Source: Salibacteraceae bacterium (lineage in GTDB: Bacteria; Bacteroidota; Bacteroidia; Flavobacteriales_G; Salibacteraceae). Taken from it: 9,443 nt of DNA. The notes under the pieces were generated by a model. That model saw only the letters and a program-made list of their open reading frames with translations. It ran no database searches and was not told where the DNA came from. This document shows, piece by piece, positions 1 through 9,443 of the stretch. The position numbers and the translations under genes were made by a program. Every line of letters begins with the position of its first letter. Position 1 is the first letter of the stretch. The stretch lies in assembly GCA_023262195.1 (NCBI GenBank), contig JALRDM010000395.1, positions 1 to 9,443 on the forward strand. The letters are read 5' to 3'.

Positions 1-1
1 A

Positions 2-964
2 CGCACTCAAATCATGAATTCGCTCCGCGGATTTTTCAACGAGCATGGTTACTTGGAAGTTGACACGCCAGTGCTCCAGCCGATTCCGGGTGGTGCCGCT
101 GCAAGACCTTTTGTTACCCACCATAATTCGCTGGACGTTGATATGTATTTGCGTATTGCCAATGAGCTCTATCTGAAACGATTGATCGTAGGTGGCTTCG
201 ATGGCGTATATGAGTTTTCACGAAACTTCCGAAATGAAGGAATGGACCGCACCCACAACCCTGAGTTTACAGTGATGGAAATCTATGTAGCCTACAAAGA
301 CTACCAATGGATGATGGATTTTACCGAAAAAATGATTGCAAAAACGGTGGTTGATCTGCACGATAAGTATGAAATCCCATTGGGCAAGCATACCATCAAT
401 TTCGCTCCGCCCTTTGACCGGATCACCTTCTTAGGTGCGATTGAAAAGTTTACAGGAACAGATGTGTCTACTATGGATGAGGCGGCTTTGAGAGATTTCT
501 GTAAAAGTCTGCACATCGAAATCGATGAGAGCATGGGAAAAGCCAAATTATTGGATGAGATTTTTGGTGAGAAATGTGAGCCAAACTTCATTCAGCCCAC
601 GTTTGTGATGGACTATCCTGTTGAGATGAGTCCGTTGTGTAAAAAACACCGCGATAATCCTAATTTGACCGAACGATTTGAGCTGATGGTAAATGGTAAG
701 GAGCTCGCCAATGCCTATTCAGAATTAAACGACCCGATAGACCAACGCGAGCGCTTCGAAGAGCAAATGAAACTGAGTGAAAAAGGTGACGATGAAGCGA
801 TGTTTATCGATCAAGATTTTTTACGTGCACTGGAATATGGCATGCCGCCTACGTCAGGCATGGGCATTGGTATAGACCGATTGGTGATGTTTTTAACCAA
901 TCAAGAATCCATTCAGGATGTCTTGTTCTTCCCTCAAATGCGACCGGAAAGGGAGTATTCATGA
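2..964 (+). CDS. lysS: Lysyl-tRNA synthetase, class II (LysRS), 5'-truncated by the window edge
   Basis: This cytoplasmic enzyme charges tRNA-Lys with lysine using ATP. The frame is already open at base 2 (R-T-Q-I before the first ATG at 14), so that ATG is internal and the true start lies upstream. About 320 codons are visible, against roughly 500 for the family, so the N-terminal OB-fold anticodon-binding domain is missing and only the class II catalytic domain is seen. Class II motif 2 is present ([15 protein letters not shown], about 227-270), preceded by the LysRS stretch [10 protein letters not shown] and then THHN. Motif 3 ([12 protein letters not shown]) lies at about 857-892. The protein ends QMRPEREYS, close to the usual LysRS C-terminus. 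No other gene is visibly co-transcribed upstream. A diverged copy of the final 25 bases lies just downstream. The identification is very secure; only the start is unknown. Confidence 0.97.
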
Positions 965-2832: not shown

Positions 2833-4647
2833 TCAAGGTTTTTTGTGGTCCTTAAAGTAGCTGAGCAGCAATTCTGCTTGGTTTGTATTCAACACCTTCT
2901 CTAAATCCTCTTTCTTAAGCTTCGATATACGATCTACACTCCCAAAACTTCGCAACAGTTCTTTCGCGGTCTTTACACCAATACCCTGAACATTGAGCAA
3001 CTCACTGGTAAAAGCCGCTTTGCTACGTTTGTTCCTGTGGTGTGTAATTCCAAAGCGATGCGCTTCGTTACGTAGTCTTTGAATGACCTTCAAGGATTCA
3101 CTGCGCTTGTCAATGTATAATGGTATCGGATCTTCTGGAAAGAAAATCTCTTCCAGCTTTTTTGCAATACCCACCACGGCTACTTTACCACGAAGGCCAA
3201 GTTTATCGATACTCTTCATCGCTGAGCTTAATTGACCTTTACCTCCATCAACAATAATAAGCTGTGGCATGGATTGATTCTCATCTTGCAGTCGTTTGTA
3301 TCTACGATATATGACCTCTTCCATGGATGCAAAATCATTGGGTCCTTCCACTGTTTTGATATTGAAGTGCCGATAATCCTTTTTTGCAGGTTTCGCGTTC
3401 TTAAACACCACACACGCTGCCACGGGATAAGAGCCTTGAAAGTTTGAGTTATCAAAACACTCTATATGTCTTGGAAGCTCCTTTAATCTTAAGTCCTTCT
3501 GTATGGTTTTCATAATCCGGTTTGAATGCCGTTCTGGATCTACTTTATCCTGAGCACGCTGTCGCTCAAGCATAAAAAACCGCACATTCTTCAATGAAAA
3601 ATCTATGAGCGCTTTCTTATCACCGCGCTGCGCATGGTGAAACTTCATAGTATCCCAAGTTGCATCAATAGGAATGGACGTGACAATCTCCTTTGCGTCA
3701 CTGCTAAATATATTGCGCATTTCAGCTACAAATGACAGCATTAGATCTTCCGATGACTCATCAAGCTTCTTTTTAAACTCAACCGAATGAGATTGAATGA
3801 TGGCGCCTTTCACCACGCGCAAGTAATTTAGATATGCGTAGGCATCATCCGCAATAATGGATACTGCGTCTAAGTTCTGAAGATTAGGATTCACTACCAC
3901 CGACTTACTCTGGTAGTCATTAAGCAAATCAATGCGTGATTTGAGTTCAGCTGCCTTCTCAAAGTCCAACACGCCAGCCGCAACGCTCATCTTTTGTTTC
4001 ATCTGTGAAATCACGGAATCAACATCTCCTTTAATAATGCTACGGATTTCACTAACGCTCTGATTATAATCTTCTTCCGTTTGCTTGCCTTCACATGGTC
4101 CTAAGCAGTTGCCAAGGTGATGCTCTAAACACACCTTAAACTTACCAGCATTAATGTTTTCTTCTGATAAATTATACTTACACGTTCTGATCTTATGAAT
4201 CTTGCTAATTACCCCTAGCACAGCTTTCATCTTCTTTACTGAAGCGTACGGGCCATAATATTCTGAGCCATCTTTGAAAATGTTGCGCGTTGGAAACACC
4301 CGCGGGAAGCGTTCGTTTTTAATGCAAATCCAAGGGTACGTCTTATCATCGCGCAGTTGGATGTTGAACTTTGGCTGATGCTCTTTAATCATTGAGTTTT
4401 CCAGCAACAATGCTTCGTACTCATTCTCAACCACGATATGTTCAACATCACGAATATTTCTTACCAGCAGAGCCGTTTTGCCACTTTCATATCGATCGCG
4501 ATTGAAGTAAGAACCAACACGCTTGCGAAGATTCTTGGCCTTGCCTACGTAGATGATTACTCCCGATTTATCCAAGTATTGATAGACCCCTGGCTTATAG
4601 GGCAATCCCTTAATCTTATCTTCTAAACTCGGAGCTATTGAATTCAT
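2833..4647 (-). CDS. uvrC: UvrABC excinuclease subunit C
   Basis: UvrC makes both incisions around a bulky DNA lesion during nucleotide excision repair, acting with UvrB after UvrA damage recognition. The 604-residue product has every expected part. The GIY-YIG 3' nuclease domain is N-terminal (G20-V-Y22, Y33-V-G35, with R41 and Glu near 76-83). Four cysteines (C156, C173, C181, C185) match the iron-sulfur ligands known in E. coli UvrC, with a longer first spacer (16 residues). The UVR (UvrB-interacting) motif is at about 208-242. The RNase H-like 5' nuclease has D399 (CFDNS), D467 (IVDGGKGQ) and H530 (EAHRFGITHHR). Helix-hairpin-helix DNA-binding motifs lie at about 549-600 (VQGIGVKTAKELL). 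ATG at 4647 is the natural start, and it is divergent from the CarH-like regulator. Length and residues indicate a functional enzyme. Confidence 0.98.
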   Translation of the reverse strand: MNSIAPSLEDKIKGLPYKPGVYQYLDKSGVIIYVGKAKNLRKRVGSYFNRDRYESGKTALLVRNIRDVEHIVVENEYEALLLENSMIKEHQPKFNIQLRDDKTYPWICIKNERFPRVFPTRNIFKDGSEYYGPYASVKKMKAVLGVISKIHKIRTCKYNLSEENINAGKFKVCLEHHLGNCLGPCEGKQTEEDYNQSVSEIRSIIKGDVDSVISQMKQKMSVAAGVLDFEKAAELKSRIDLLNDYQSKSVVVNPNLQNLDAVSIIADDAYAYLNYLRVVKGAIIQSHSVEFKKKLDESSEDLMLSFVAEMRNIFSSDAKEIVTSIPIDATWDTMKFHHAQRGDKKALIDFSLKNVRFFMLERQRAQDKVDPERHSNRIMKTIQKDLRLKELPRHIECFDNSNFQGSYPVAACVVFKNAKPAKKDYRHFNIKTVEGPNDFASMEEVIYRRYKRLQDENQSMPQLIIVDGGKGQLSSAMKSIDKLGLRGKVAVVGIAKKLEEIFFPEDPIPLYIDKRSESLKVIQRLRNEAHRFGITHHRNKRSKAAFTSELLNVQGIGVKTAKELLRSFGSVDRISKLKKEDLEKVLNTNQAELLLSYFKDHKKP

Positions 4648-4737: not shown

Positions 4738-5628
4738 ATGAACACGTACTCCATTAAGGATTTAGAAAAATTAACTGGTATCAAGGCGCATACCATAAGG
4801 GCGTGGGAGCAACGCTATGGCCTCATCGAACCAAAAAGGACGGATACGAACATCCGGTACTATGATGATGAACAGCTAAAGCATCTGCTCAACGTTTCTC
4901 TGCTAAGTAAGAATGGATTTAAGATTTCGAAGATTTGCCGCTGGAGCGATGAGGAATTTGAGCAGACGATAAGAGAAGTATATGACAGGACGCTTATACA
5001 TTCTTCTGGTCCACACATAGAAATAAGCGCCAACGATCTCATTACAGCCATGATTGATCTTGATGCGGCCAAGTTCAATGCCATTTACGAGTCCTCTATT
5101 CAAACCCACGGATTTCAGGATACAATCAAAGAAGTGATTTATCCATTTCTGGAGAAAGTTGGCATTTTGTGGACCATCGGTCAAATCAATATTGCCCAGG
5201 AGCATTTTGTCTCGTGTTTGATTCGTCAAAAGATTATAGCCGCGATTGATCGCTTGAGTAATAATCTGGAGGGTAAGAAGTTTGTCCTTTTCTTGCCTGA
5301 GGGTGAACACCATGAAATTGGATTATTACTCGCTTACTATCTGTTGAAAGAGCAAGGACAGAATGTATATTATCTCGGGCAAAATTTACCCACAAAGGAT
5401 ATTGGAGATGTGATTGAGACCATCCAACCCGACTTTGTATTGACTTTTATTGTTGACCCAAGTCTAATCAACACGGCAGATAAGCTTGTAAGTCATTTGC
5501 AAGAAGCATCACAGAATTCAAAATTGCTTATAGCGTCTCGGCCAAGTGAGAAGCTTAATAACGAAGCATTCCCCAATGTTCAATTCATGCACAGCATGGA
5601 TGATCTAACCGCAATCATTCACGAATAG
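4738..5628 (+). CDS. MerR-family regulator with cobalamin-binding domain (CarH/LitR-like light sensor)
   Basis: This probably represses carotenoid genes in the dark when bound to adenosylcobalamin and is released by light, as known for CarH/LitR proteins. The 296-residue product begins with a MerR winged-helix domain (about 1-70; YSIKDLEKLTGI, TIRAWEQRYGLI, RYYDD). A helical cap of the B12-binding module spans about 95-175, with the CarH signature W145-x9-E155-H156. A Rossmann-like B12 domain follows from about 180, with E190-x-H192-x-x-G195 in place of the common DxHxxG; H192 would be the lower cobalt ligand. It lies divergent to uvrC and directly upstream of an ECF sigma gene and crtI-crtB, the typical setting for light-induced carotenogenesis in this phylum. 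TTGTTTA-type repeats flank it on both sides. Light and cobalamin response are inferred from these motifs, not shown. Confidence 0.92.
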   Translation: MNTYSIKDLEKLTGIKAHTIRAWEQRYGLIEPKRTDTNIRYYDDEQLKHLLNVSLLSKNGFKISKICRWSDEEFEQTIREVYDRTLIHSSGPHIEISANDLITAMIDLDAAKFNAIYESSIQTHGFQDTIKEVIYPFLEKVGILWTIGQINIAQEHFVSCLIRQKIIAAIDRLSNNLEGKKFVLFLPEGEHHEIGLLLAYYLLKEQGQNVYYLGQNLPTKDIGDVIETIQPDFVLTFIVDPSLINTADKLVSHLQEASQNSKLLIASRPSEKLNNEAFPNVQFMHSMDDLTAIIHE

Positions 5629-5633
5629 AAATA

Positions 5634-5669
5634 TTTTGTTTACCCTTTTGTAAAAAAAGTTAAACAAAA
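5634..5669. promoter_or_regulatory. Inverted-repeat operator candidate upstream of the sigma gene promoter
   Basis: TTTTGTTTA (5634-5642) and TAAACAAAA (5661-5669) form a perfect 9-bp inverted repeat separated by 18 bp. A second overlapping inverted repeat, CTTTTGT (5645-5651) with ACAAAAG (5664-5670), shares the right arm. The element ends just before the -33 box of the proposed promoter. A role as CarH binding site is inferred from position and from reuse of the same core elsewhere in the gap. Confidence 0.5.
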
Positions 5670-5732
5670 GTTTGGGTTTACTATATCTACTCTTATTTTT
5701 GTGTAACTTTTAATCAAAATAGTTAAACAAAA
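5658..5732. repeat. 12-bp direct repeat flanking the sigma gene promoter
   Basis: AGTTAAACAAAA occurs exactly at 5658-5669 and again at 5721-5732. The copies are 63 bp apart, about six helical turns, placing them on the same DNA face. One copy abuts the -33 box and the other covers the leader up to the first base of the sigma ATG. Binding at both could block initiation or loop the promoter. Confidence 0.55.
5671..5701 (+). promoter_or_regulatory. Bacteroidota-type promoter for the sigma-crt operon
   Basis: A -33 TTTG (5671-5674) and a -7 TATTTTTG (5694-5701, exact TAnnTTTG) are separated by 19 bp, the expected geometry for the phylum's primary sigma factor. Transcription would start near 5706-5709, giving a leader of about 25 nt that contains the downstream operator-like repeat. 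This is the best promoter match in the window and implies that sigma and the pigment genes can be read independently of the regulator. Confidence 0.6.
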
Positions 5733-6241
5733 TGTCAACAGTAGAATATAATAATCACCTTCTCTCTCATAAGCAAGCGTTAGAATATTTTGCTTTGAGT
5801 CTTACTTCAAATCGTGACGATGCTCAAGATTTAATGCAAGACACGTTTATGAAGGCTATTGCGTATAGAGAAAAATTCAAGGAAGCAACCAACCTCAAAG
5901 CATGGTTATACACCATAATGAAAAACACCTTCATTAATAAGTATAGAAGGAAAGTTAAGTCGAGAACCATCATCGATCAAAGTGAAGATTTATATTATCT
6001 AAACAATGCTCCCGATGGAAAAGATAAGCACCCAAGTCACTTGTACAACACGCAAGAAATCATGAAGGAATTGAATGCGCTTCAAGATGAATACCGTATT
6101 CCATTCACCATGCACCACGAAGGGTATAAGTATAAAGAGATTGCAGATCACCTTAACCTTCCAATCGGAACTGTGAAAAGCCGTATCTTTTTAGCCAGAC
6201 AAAAACTCATGGATTCGTTAAAGGAATTCAATCCGAATTAA
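5732..6241 (+). CDS. ECF-type RNA polymerase sigma factor of the carotenoid cluster
   Basis: This alternative sigma factor directs RNA polymerase to specific promoters. The 169-residue product has region 2 at about 13-76 (DDAQDLMQDTFMKA at 29-42; LKAWLYTIMKNTFINKYRR) and region 4 at about 108-163 (helix-turn-helix EIADHLNLPIGTVKSRIFLARQKL). A linker of about 30 residues joins them, the normal two-domain ECF plan. No anti-sigma gene is adjacent, so control is probably transcriptional, through the CarH-like regulator and the operator-like repeats upstream. Comparable sigma genes accompany LitR/CarH regulators in light-induced carotenoid systems (LitS-like). The stop is 7 nt before crtI, so the pigment genes should be co-transcribed and may also be its targets. 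ATG at 5732 fits region 2 spacing. Its actual regulon cannot be read from this window. Confidence 0.92.
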   Translation: MSTVEYNNHLLSHKQALEYFALSLTSNRDDAQDLMQDTFMKAIAYREKFKEATNLKAWLYTIMKNTFINKYRRKVKSRTIIDQSEDLYYLNNAPDGKDKHPSHLYNTQEIMKELNALQDEYRIPFTMHHEGYKYKEIADHLNLPIGTVKSRIFLARQKLMDSLKEFNPN

Positions 6242-6248
6242 TCACCAC

Positions 6249-7715
6249 ATGAAAACCGCCACTATTATAGGCTCTGGTTTCTCCTCTCTCGCGGCAGCCT
6301 CTACATTAGCTGCCAATGGAGTAGAAGCAACCATTGTCGAAAAAAACCAACAGATCGGGGGAAGAGCCAGAATGCTTAAGCGCGATGGCTTCACCTTCGA
6401 TATGGGCCCCAGTTGGTATTGGATGCCCGATGTGTTCGAGCGATATTTTGAATCGTTTGGCAAGAAGCCCAGCGACTACTACGAGCTGAAACGTCTCGAT
6501 CCGTCCTATAAAGTTTTCTTTCATGATGAAGCCATCAGCATTCCGCCTGCTATGGAAGAACTCGAACAATTGTTTGAGAGCAAAGAGAAAGGCGCGGGTA
6601 CAGCCCTACGTAAGTTTCTTGCCGATGCATCTGTTAAATATGATGCCGGCATCAACGATTTAGTGCACAAACCAGGGCATAGCTTATTTGAATTTGCCCA
6701 ATGGAAGGTTATCAAAGGCCTGTTCGAGCTCGATCTTCTAAAAGACTTTAGGTCATTTGCACAGTCTTACTTCAAAAATGATAAGCTTCTCAGCCTCATC
6801 GAATTTCCCATTTTGTTTTTAGGTGCAATGCCTCAAGACACACCGGCACTTTACAGTTTGATGAACTATGCAGATATGTCACTAGGGACATGGTATCCAA
6901 TGGGTGGAATGCATAAAATCATTGAAGCAATGGAGTCTTTGGCTCGAGAAAAAGGTGTGAATTTTCGTACAAATGAGCCAGTGACTCAAATTTTCCGGAA
7001 TGGGTCGATGAATGTCGTAACAGACAAGGACACCATAAAGTCCGATTACGTAGTTGGTGGAGCTGACTACCACCATATTGAAACCAGCCTTTTGAAGCCT
7101 GAGGACAGACAGTATTCGTCATCATATTGGGATCGAAGAACAATGGCCCCTTCTTGTTTGCTCTATTATGTTGGGGTTGATAAAAAGTTGACTGGGCTAG
7201 AACATCATAATCTTTTCTTTGATACGCCATTCGACCAGCATGCCATTGAAATCTATTCCGATGAACAATGGCCATCAAACCCATTGTTTTATGTTTGCTG
7301 TCCATCTCAAACTGATCCCAGCGTGGCGCCTGAGGGTAAAGAGAATCTTTTCATTCTTATACCTATTGCTCCGGGGCTCGAAGGGGATACAGACGCTGTA
7401 AGAAAAGAATATTTCGATAAGGTGATTGCTCGCATTGAAAAGCATACGAAGCAGTCATTTTCAAATGAAATTTTATTCTCAGAAAGTTATTCCATCAAGG
7501 AATTCAAAACGGATTACAATTCTTTTAAAGGTAATGCGTATGGCCTAGCCAACACGCTTATGCAAACTGCTTTTCTTAAACCAAAACTTCGACATAAAAA
7601 GTTGAAAAATCTATTCTTCACCGGTCAATTAACCACTCCAGGACCCGGTGTACCTCCTTCACTTATCAGTGGTCAAGTGGTGGCCAAAGAAATTTTAAAA
7701 TCAATTAGACAATGA
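6249..7715 (+). CDS. crtI: Phytoene desaturase (CrtI-type, FAD-dependent)
   Basis: CrtI introduces double bonds into colourless phytoene, usually yielding lycopene in bacteria, at the membrane with FAD as cofactor. The 488-residue product opens with the dinucleotide-binding fold G8-S-G10-F-S-S, an acidic residue at the end of the second strand (IVEKN), and IGGRARMLKRDGFTFDMGPS. It closes with the family signature FFTGQLTTPGPGVPPSLISGQ, then a short helix VAKEILKSIRQ. Length is usual for CrtI. It starts 7 nt after the sigma stop, and its stop overlaps the crtB start (ATGA), implying coupled translation. The number of desaturation steps cannot be told from sequence alone. Related amine-oxidase-fold enzymes (carotene isomerase or ketolase types) are possible, but pairing with crtB makes desaturase by far the best reading. 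Confidence 0.95.
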   Translation: MKTATIIGSGFSSLAAASTLAANGVEATIVEKNQQIGGRARMLKRDGFTFDMGPSWYWMPDVFERYFESFGKKPSDYYELKRLDPSYKVFFHDEAISIPPAMEELEQLFESKEKGAGTALRKFLADASVKYDAGINDLVHKPGHSLFEFAQWKVIKGLFELDLLKDFRSFAQSYFKNDKLLSLIEFPILFLGAMPQDTPALYSLMNYADMSLGTWYPMGGMHKIIEAMESLAREKGVNFRTNEPVTQIFRNGSMNVVTDKDTIKSDYVVGGADYHHIETSLLKPEDRQYSSSYWDRRTMAPSCLLYYVGVDKKLTGLEHHNLFFDTPFDQHAIEIYSDEQWPSNPLFYVCCPSQTDPSVAPEGKENLFILIPIAPGLEGDTDAVRKEYFDKVIARIEKHTKQSFSNEILFSESYSIKEFKTDYNSFKGNAYGLANTLMQTAFLKPKLRHKKLKNLFFTGQLTTPGPGVPPSLISGQVVAKEILKSIRQ

Positions 7716-8548
7716 AAGCACTTTTTGACGAAACATCTTTCAAAACGAGCAGATTGACTACAGAGCTCTATAGCACATCATTTTCACTGGGCACAAAGTT
7801 TCTCGCAGACGACATCAGAGATGCGATCTACGGAATTTATGGCTTCGTAAGATTCGCAGATGAAATTGTAGATACCTTTCATGATTATGATAAGCCGTAT
7901 TTGCTGGAAAAATTTCGCAACGACACATACGAGGCGATTGAGCAAAAAATTTCGCTCAATCCAATTTTGAATTCTTTCCAGCACGTTGTGCACAAGTACA
8001 ATATCGAGCGACAGTTGATCGATACTTTTTTGGAAAGCATGGCAATGGACCTAAAGAAATTTGAATACAACCAAAAGGGATATGAGCAATACATTCTTGG
8101 GTCCGCAGAGGTGGTAGGCTTGATGTGTTTGCGTGTCTTTGTTTATGGAGACGATGAGAAATACAAAGAGCTCGAGTATTCAGCTATGAAGCTAGGAGCG
8201 GCATTTCAGAAAATAAATTTCCTTAGAGATTTGAAAGCTGATTTCAAGGGCATGGGTCGATCTTACTTTCCAGGTGTAGACCTTTCAAACTTTGGCGATA
8301 GTGAGAAAAAGAAAATTGAGAAAGAAATCATGATGGACTTTGCCGAGGGTTACGCAGGCATTTTGCGGTTGCCTAAATCTTCAAGATTTGGTGTTTACTT
8401 GGCATATCTCTATTTCTTTCAATTGCTAAAGAAGATTCAGCGCACGGATGCGCAAAAAATTCTCACCAAACGCATTCGCATTGCTGATCCGAGGAAGTAT
8501 GTGCTTTTTGTTGAAAGTTATCTAAAGCATAGTCTCAACCTGATATGA
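7712..8548 (+). CDS. crtB: Phytoene synthase
   Basis: CrtB condenses two geranylgeranyl diphosphates head to head into phytoene, the committed step to C40 carotenoids. The 278-residue product is an all-helical squalene/phytoene synthase. It has early substrate-site residues YSTSFSLGTKFL (20-31), the first metal-binding motif D50-E-I-V-D54, and the second D173-L-K-A-D177 within INFLRDLKADF, followed by GRSYFP. Both DxxxD motifs are intact, so activity is expected. The ATG overlaps the crtI stop by ATGA, and the crtB stop overlaps the next start in the same way, showing a tightly packed operon. Squalene-type homologues (HpnC/HpnD) look similar, but adjacency to crtI settles the role. Substrate supply (GGPP synthase) is not encoded in the window. 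Confidence 0.95.
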   Translation: MKALFDETSFKTSRLTTELYSTSFSLGTKFLADDIRDAIYGIYGFVRFADEIVDTFHDYDKPYLLEKFRNDTYEAIEQKISLNPILNSFQHVVHKYNIERQLIDTFLESMAMDLKKFEYNQKGYEQYILGSAEVVGLMCLRVFVYGDDEKYKELEYSAMKLGAAFQKINFLRDLKADFKGMGRSYFPGVDLSNFGDSEKKKIEKEIMMDFAEGYAGILRLPKSSRFGVYLAYLYFFQLLKKIQRTDAQKILTKRIRIADPRKYVLFVESYLKHSLNLI

Positions 8549-9030
8549 TCGGACTAATATTGATCGCATTGCTCACCGGGGGTGATGTGAAACCAGCTAC
8601 CATGCCAGAGATACGTGTGTCCTTTTTTCAAGCGACAACTGAAATTGGACAGCGAGAAAATTTCTTCGAAATGATGGAGTCTATTCCAAAAGCATCCCCC
8701 TTAGTAAAGGTCTATTATGGTGCAGCTCAGGCCATGATGGCTGAAGTGGTTTTCAATCCATACACCAAGCTCAACCATTTCATAGAAGGAAAAAACTTCA
8801 TAGAAGAGGCTATTGCCGAGCGGCCAGAGGAGGCTGAATTAAGGTACGTGAGATATCTAATCCAATCCAATGCCCCCGATTTTCTTGACTACAACAAAGA
8901 CATACCTGATGACTTAAAATTCATCTGCGCGGCCATTGAACAAGCAAATGAGAAGGAGTCTTGGATGTTTCAATTTCTAGAATACCGATCACTACAGAAG
9001 GCAAAGCTTGAAGCAAACGGAAAAAGCTAG
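8545..9030 (+). CDS. Unrecognised protein embedded in the carotenoid operon
   Basis: I do not recognise a named family. The 161-residue product starts with about ten hydrophobic residues (MIGLILIALLTGG) lacking a basic n-region, so a classical signal peptide is doubtful; a short membrane anchor or buried helix is possible. The rest looks helical and rather acidic. A pattern of paired helices (VYYGAAQAMMAEVVFNP, then FIEEAIAERPEEAELRYVRYLIQ) resembles tetratricopeptide-like packing, without a clean TPR consensus. Its ATG overlaps the crtB stop (ATGA) and its stop is 1 nt before idi, so it is translated with the pathway enzymes. That placement suggests an accessory role, such as assembling or scaffolding the carotenoid enzymes at the membrane, but this is inference only. 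No internal stop or unusual codon use is seen. Confidence 0.85.
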   Translation: MIGLILIALLTGGDVKPATMPEIRVSFFQATTEIGQRENFFEMMESIPKASPLVKVYYGAAQAMMAEVVFNPYTKLNHFIEGKNFIEEAIAERPEEAELRYVRYLIQSNAPDFLDYNKDIPDDLKFICAAIEQANEKESWMFQFLEYRSLQKAKLEANGKS

Positions 9031-9031
9031 T

Positions 9032-9403
9032 ATGGAAAAGGTAATTCTTGTAAATGAGCATGACGAACAAGTCGGCACCATGGAAAAAATGGAGGCTCAT
9101 GAAAAGGGAATACTCCATAGAGCCTTTTCAGTATTTGTTTTTAACGACAATGATGATTTGCTTATGCAACAGAGAGCGGTGAGCAAATACCATAGCGGTG
9201 GCTTATGGACGAATACTTGTTGCAGCCACCCAAGAGAAGGTGAAGCAGCAATAATCTTTTCATTAGAAGGTGTTTTTGCAACAATTGCAGCTTGGTTTTT
9301 GTTAAATCAGATATTAGGAGCTAATAATTTATTAGGATGTTTCTTTATTTTATGTGGTGTTTTATTATCTCAATTACTACCTTTAATTAAACAATCAGTT
9401 TAA
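9032..9403 (+). CDS. idi: Chimeric ORF: N-terminal half of isopentenyl diphosphate isomerase joined to a transporter tail
   Basis: The first 71-72 residues are type I Idi, which interconverts IPP and DMAPP to feed isoprenoid synthesis. Visible Idi features are H23 and H29 (HEKGILHRAFSVFVF), LLMQQRAVSKYHSGGLWTNT, the active-site Cys64 and His66 in CCSHP, and REGE. After residue 72-73 the Idi sequence stops. The Nudix-type metal-binding glutamates and the whole C-terminal half are absent, replaced by hydrophobic EamA-like sequence in the same frame. I chose ATG at 9032, 1 nt after the preceding stop; an upstream in-frame ATG at 9008 lies inside the previous gene and adds residues unlike Idi. 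As written the product could not be an active isomerase. The genuine gene presumably continues normally in the source genome. Confidence 0.88.
   Translation: MEKVILVNEHDEQVGTMEKMEAHEKGILHRAFSVFVFNDNDDLLMQQRAVSKYHSGGLWTNTCCSHPREGEAAIIFSLEGVFATIAAWFLLNQILGANNLLGCFFILCGVLLSQLLPLIKQSV
9245..9251. other. Probable chimeric assembly breakpoint
   Basis: Protein homology switches from Idi (through Glu71, codon 9242-9244) to EamA (from Ile74, codon 9251-9253) across the codons GCA GCA. G+C falls abruptly at the same place. The GCAGCA could belong to either side and may be the shared bases at which two molecules or reads were joined. It lies about 195 bases from the window end. Confidence 0.72.
9248..9403 (+). 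CDS. C-terminal fragment of an EamA/DMT-family transporter, from foreign AT-rich DNA
   Basis: From about residue 73 of the fused ORF the protein reads as the last part of a drug/metabolite transporter domain: IIFSLEGVFATIAAWFLL, then a loop, then the final membrane helix with the typical CGVLLSQLLPL ending, and a short basic tail. The family normally ends with IFSLEPVFA, then W, then GVLLSQL, so the order and spacing fit. Two membrane helices are visible; the preceding eight are missing. G+C is about 23% over 9251-9443, against about 42% for the idi part, and codons end mainly in A or T. This suggests an AT-rich donor genome, SAR11-like being one possibility. The substrate is unknown. Bases 9404-9443 hold no gene that I can see. 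Confidence 0.78.
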   Translation, partial: AIIFSLEGVFATIAAWFLLNQILGANNLLGCFFILCGVLLSQLLPLIKQSV

Positions 9404-9443
9404 AAATAAATTATCGACAATAAAATTAATCCAATTATTAATC

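Follow-up and report, generated by a model that had tools for sequence, protein, structure and literature searches.

The last 187 bases of the window, the whole 9,443-nucleotide stretch of DNA, are almost certainly Pelagibacter-type DNA that became joined to an isomerase gene (idi) through a library or assembly error and not by recombination in a cell, to judge from sequence comparisons. The window is one entire contig (C34), with its last base at 9443, and belongs to a bin (G000) of 420 contigs and 2.10 Mb with 78.9% completeness and 2.8% contamination. Near its 3′ end, a frame of 123 residues (9032–9403) joins an Idi head in frame to an EamA/DMT transporter tail. This idi-EamA feature is most likely not biological, and biologically there is probably nothing unusual here, only a normal crt-idi cluster to which the wrong end is attached. 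The features of the window are as follows.

1–99, plus strand: 99 bases identical to positions 388–486 (minus strand) of contig C164, by exact match; an assembly-graph branch mark
2–964, plus strand: lysS-like class II tRNA synthetase, truncated on its 5′ side where the contig begins (PF00152, profile positions 25–307)
6249–7715, plus strand: crtI-like phytoene desaturase, native context (PF01593)
7712–8548, plus strand: crtB-like phytoene synthase, native context (PF00494)
8545–9030, plus strand: conserved 161-residue protein separating crtB from idi, family unknown, without a Pfam match
9032–9256, plus strand: native idi (type I isopentenyl-diphosphate isomerase), residues 1–75 only (TIGR02150, NUDIX, and identity with proteins P0002 and P0003)
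9245–9256, plus strand: shared Ala-Ala-Ile-Ile codons, the site of the join (native and donor proteins compared)
9257–9403, plus strand: foreign C-terminal end of an EamA/DMT transporter with its stop codon, Candidatus Pelagibacter type (PF00892 and protein matches)
9404–9443, no strand: AT-rich non-coding end, presumed to be foreign too (sequence and composition)

The main part of the contig is native, since 10 of the 11 same-genus loci fetched share the order crtI, crtB, 161-residue protein, idi. Among the same-genus idi loci fetched, crtI lies upstream of crtB in 10 of 11, and crtB upstream of idi likewise in 10 of 11. Homologues of the 161-residue protein occupy the same place in 10/11 same-genus loci and in 2/8 loci outside the genus, which makes it a conserved component of the carotenoid cluster that has yet to be named. 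In the interval 4738–7715, a MerR-type regulator with B12-binding domains and then an ECF sigma factor stand directly 5′ of crtI-crtB; light-controlled carotenoid clusters have a similar regulator arrangement ahead of their crt genes. A uvrC-like gene, recognised by eye, lies at 2833–4647, and in one same-genus genome (G001, locus L096) idi sits beside a uvrC-like gene, also recognised by eye, with no match to crtB there.

Both halves of the 123-residue frame are recognisable and both are incomplete. NUDIX is matched at residues 28–72, and the type I Idi model TIGR02150 at residues 4–73 with 96.5 bits, below its curated cut-off of 105.8, so that the frame fails as a type I Idi by that measure. 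The EamA profile (PF00892) is matched at residues 71–113, covering positions 91–133 of 135, with 28.1 bits, just under the cut-off of 28.2. EamA/DMT transporters are complete membrane proteins with two EamA repeats, and the window frame holds part of one repeat only. The identity of the tail, first proposed in a sequence-only reading of this DNA, was borne out by the EamA profile match together with matches to full-length transporters. The same reading had ended the Idi part at residue 71; the Idi identity stands, but native identity to P0002 and P0003 reaches residue 75.

The frame was also said to have lost the isomerase metal site, which holds in part. The C-terminal Glu-x-Glu motif, which we take to serve in metal binding and catalysis, is present as TEHEFDH in P0003, where it aligns with EHEID of human IDI1, and is absent from the window frame. 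The loss is not total, as the putative His ligand positions, presumed to be metal ligands of Idi, fall inside the retained part. The Cys-Cys-Ser-His region, to which we also ascribe a functional role, is retained in the chimera. With the C-terminal acidic Idi residues and most of the transporter gone, the chimeric protein would be expected to lack activity.

The join can be placed within 12 bases. Native identity extends to residue 75 (base 9256) and donor identity begins at residue 72 (base 9245); because both parents encode Ala-Ala-Ile-Ile, the join lies within 9245–9256. At this point the native parent reads ...GEAAIIGAHRRLQ and the donor transporters read ...PAPAAIIFSLEG, or more fully ...KNITPAPAAIIFSLEG, with the word xAAIIF present in 120/120 listed donor proteins. 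Past the join, P0003 continues as native Idi (...HPREGEAAIIGAHRRLQEEMGF), and P0002 beyond residue 75 is likewise native (...GAHRRLQ). Read from the proteins, the word shared by the parents is at most 12 bases, or 13 should the donor Pro codon have A as its third base. An earlier placement near 9250/9251 falls inside this interval, but an exact point has to give way to the 12-base interval itself.

The same idi allele continues as an ordinary Idi elsewhere. P0002, 82 residues encoded on a contig of 1595 bases, is identical to the window across 75 residues. P0003, an ordinary Idi of 182 residues, is 99% identical to the Idi part of the window and is represented by 19 sequences on 13 contigs, the longest of 42 kb; residue 41 is Asp in the window and in P0002 and Asn in P0003. 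The chimera itself (P0001) is represented by one sequence on one contig, the window, and among the 120 listed of 7997 Idi matches it alone carries an EamA domain. One Idi relative of 166 residues (P0036) is listed with PF03120 and PF01653 beside NUDIX, and is perhaps another chimeric or mixed entry.

Related genomes give the same picture. Idi was matched in 31 of 40 relatives, including 12/12 of the same genus, and all 33 non-self matches stop at query residues 71–79, covering the Idi part only. The idi-EamA junction, whose occurrence in a related genome had been named beforehand as evidence against a chimera, was found in 0/40 relatives (31 with and nine without an Idi match). Past the position of the join, the frame stays Idi in 27/27 loci read out, from 99 fetched, in two of them until the contig end. 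The head shares its lineage with P0003 and the same-genus relatives, and Bacteroidota names occur among the matches.

The tail points elsewhere. All 120 listed matches (of 5839) are EamA proteins, 118 of them 294–298 residues long, with 92–96% identity across 98–100% of the 53-residue query. Just one listed match names its organism, Candidatus Pelagibacter communis. A search with the tail against marine genomes had been proposed as a way of finding an unrelated AT-rich lineage, and the tail did match full-length transporters of such a marine lineage, with this one name. By these protein matches, head and tail come from different lineages. The tail DNA occurs once in the bin, and scans of viral contigs gave no confirmed relative for either the donor DNA or the native idi DNA.

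Base composition changes at the join. G+C falls from 93/219 over 9032–9250 to 44/193 over 9251–9443, and the recount agreed exactly with the abrupt change reported before. In 72 readable contigs, from 110 fetched of the 420 in the bin, the window's last 188 bases had the lowest G+C (0.234) among 143 contig ends, and every one of 2055 internal windows of other contigs lay above it (minimum 0.266). AT-rich ends were enriched generally, 12/145 lying beyond the 99th percentile of 3412 internal controls where 1.45 were expected, with the 3′ end of the window ranking first among the 145 for AT-richness. Part of this enrichment could come from breaks within AT-rich regions. Since the enrichment alone could reflect such breaks, eight further ends were read, and two of them (C419 and C155) were chimeric.

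C419 (L219), positions 1–253: foreign 5′ end, a piece of Pelagibacter-type glutamyl-tRNA synthetase (GltX) that reads in frame into a native T9SS protein
C155 (L191), positions 4973–5338: foreign 3′ end of at least two pieces, ETF-QO and then a LivH-like permease

The same defect thus recurs at other contig ends of this assembly. The GltX part of C419 is 76.8–79.7% identical over 69 residues in 7/8 best alignments, three listed matches to its frame are named Candidatus Pelagibacter sp., and the frame continues into a native T9SS sorting domain. Contig C333 ends inside C419 at 254–352, an exact 99-base overlap, and carries the native continuation. At C155, the ETF-QO piece matches residues 407–453 of PDB 2gmh (E 7e-4) and the permease piece matches PF02653; the end frame has no match in 14/14 relatives, and the reverse frame has no Pfam match above the cut-off. 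Here too a second contig, C259, ends inside at 4874–4972 with an exact 99-base overlap and holds the native continuation, folD-like by eye. Two other ends that we read are AT-rich: the 5′ end of C20 (L134) lacks both a clear foreign gene and a partner in the bin, and the 3′ end of C8 (L122) likewise shows no clear foreign gene, its tested frame having no Pfam match over the cut-off.

The overlap with a native sibling proved predictive at the other end of the window. The first 99 bases of the window are identical to C164:388–486 on the minus strand, an overlap from which C164:1–387 (L238) was predicted to be foreign, and this prediction was borne out. C164 carries lysS (PF00152, profile positions 1–59) and leaves it where the 99-mer ends, beyond which come short unrelated frames that belong to no known family; the remaining lysS (profile 25–307) is in the window. 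The foreign end of C164 has a normal G+C of 0.442 and would therefore be missed by composition alone. No similar DNA was found for it in a phage collection, and no clear family emerged, the only PHROG matches being four at E 0.02–0.05.

Exact 99-base sharing is the signature of a wrongly resolved branch in the assembly graph, and 99 would be the last word length of the assembler. In all three pairs found (3/3), one contig departs from the native gene past the shared stretch. Across 75 readable contigs, the only such pairs were C419/C333 and C155/C259; there were none among the 73 contigs fetched irrespective of partners, C333 and C259 having been fetched as matches, and no end-to-end overlaps across 72 readable contigs. 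A bin-wide partner search with five ends gave a partner for three (C155, C419 and the window 5′ end) and none for two, the window 3′ end and the C20 5′ end.

The idi end has no native partner with a 99-base overlap in the bin. Nor was the second half of Idi found there, and 9032–9443 had no other match in it. As the bin is 79% complete, the partner contig of idi may be unbinned. In several relatives queD-like and folE-like genes, recognised by eye, follow idi. Their matches in the bin, on C98, are only 48% and 38% identical and C98 has no Idi match, so these genes yielded no partner for the join.

How the join arose can be proposed in outline. Since the parents have no more than 13 bases in common where idi breaks off, far below 99, the false path has to originate in a chimeric read or in an early stage of assembly with a small word. 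Such a read, or a path made across a short overlap at a small word length, may have opened a false branch where the parents share these 12–13 bases at most; the assembler, working at k=99, would then have merged this branch into the window contig, and the native half of idi would have been left on a separate, unbinned contig. Within this artefact, it is evenly balanced whether a laboratory chimeric molecule, made in amplification or library preparation, was read faithfully or the assembler invented the path. The former would account for a shared word so far below 99 having been spanned by a read or an early small-word step, and the C155 and C419 ends resemble mosaics of more than one piece. 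We saw no sign here, however, that the sample was amplified, and on the evidence of the siblings with exact 99-base overlaps, the assembler took a wrong branch as well. Published chimeras of phi29 amplification form at similarly short overlaps (PMC1855051, PMC4595205). A laboratory chimera is in any case a sub-case of the library or assembly error that we favour, not its opposite.

Recombination in a cell, by which Pelagibacter DNA entered idi at the short shared word and truncated Idi, is very improbable. The join is in frame at a four-codon word common to both parents, and unlike the other foreign ends the idi end has no native partner contig in the bin; the kept reading frame, which a random join gives one time in three, counts against an artefact. 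Against recombination, the same allele is intact elsewhere, the junction occurs in 0/40 relatives of which 31 have an Idi match, and foreign DNA also stands at C419, C155 and C164, directly adjoining 99-base branch points. Such an event would moreover disrupt idi within the conserved crtI-crtB-idi arrangement. Its specific form, a real interphylum recombination at a 12–13-base word in a Bacteroidota-type cell, which would have left a minority strain with its carotenoid operon disrupted, is a shade less probable again. Natural lateral transfer was accordingly rejected, given the junction's absence from the 40 relatives, the native allele elsewhere and the 99-base overlaps. The least credible reading, with hardly any probability left to it, is a novel fusion protein that puts a membrane tail on an isomerase head: the 123-codon frame is open and its junction in frame, but it occurs once among the 120 best-listed of 7997 matches and both domains are mere fragments, and we rejected it on those grounds. 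A library or assembly chimera, already considered the likeliest cause in the sequence-only reading, is favoured by the AT-rich donor match, the native allele elsewhere and the three similar ends in the bin.

Where foreign stretches of 187 to 387 bases extend the end of a contig, they can evade contamination checks that consider whole contigs. They can seed false fusion proteins in protein databases, of which P0001 is an example, and they could pass for interphylum transfers. Where a contig shares exactly 99 bases with a native sibling, the overlap offers a simple, read-free signature of such ends, and it was this signature that predicted the end of C164.

Chimeric contig ends are a recognised class in short-read metagenome assemblies. 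The window resembles them in the foreign extension at its end and in the three other ends of its bin whose native continuation lies on a contig with a 99-base overlap; unlike C419, C155 and C164, it has the native partner of its idi end missing from the bin. Compared with type I Idi (TIGR02150), residues 1–75 are the same and the C-terminal half with Glu-x-Glu is absent, and compared with the 296-residue EamA/DMT transporters of Candidatus Pelagibacter type, the last 50 or so residues are 92–96% identical and the other 245 or so are absent. There is also a likeness to the chimeras of phi29 multiple-displacement amplification, in which, according to PMC1855051, priming occurs at 2–21 bases in more than 70% of junctions, and for which PMC4595205 gives an overlap peak at 6; the junction here likewise lies at a short word, of at most 12–13 bases. 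In a single-cell E. coli phi29 study, more than 85% of chimeras were inversions, whereas the window joins DNA of two phyla.
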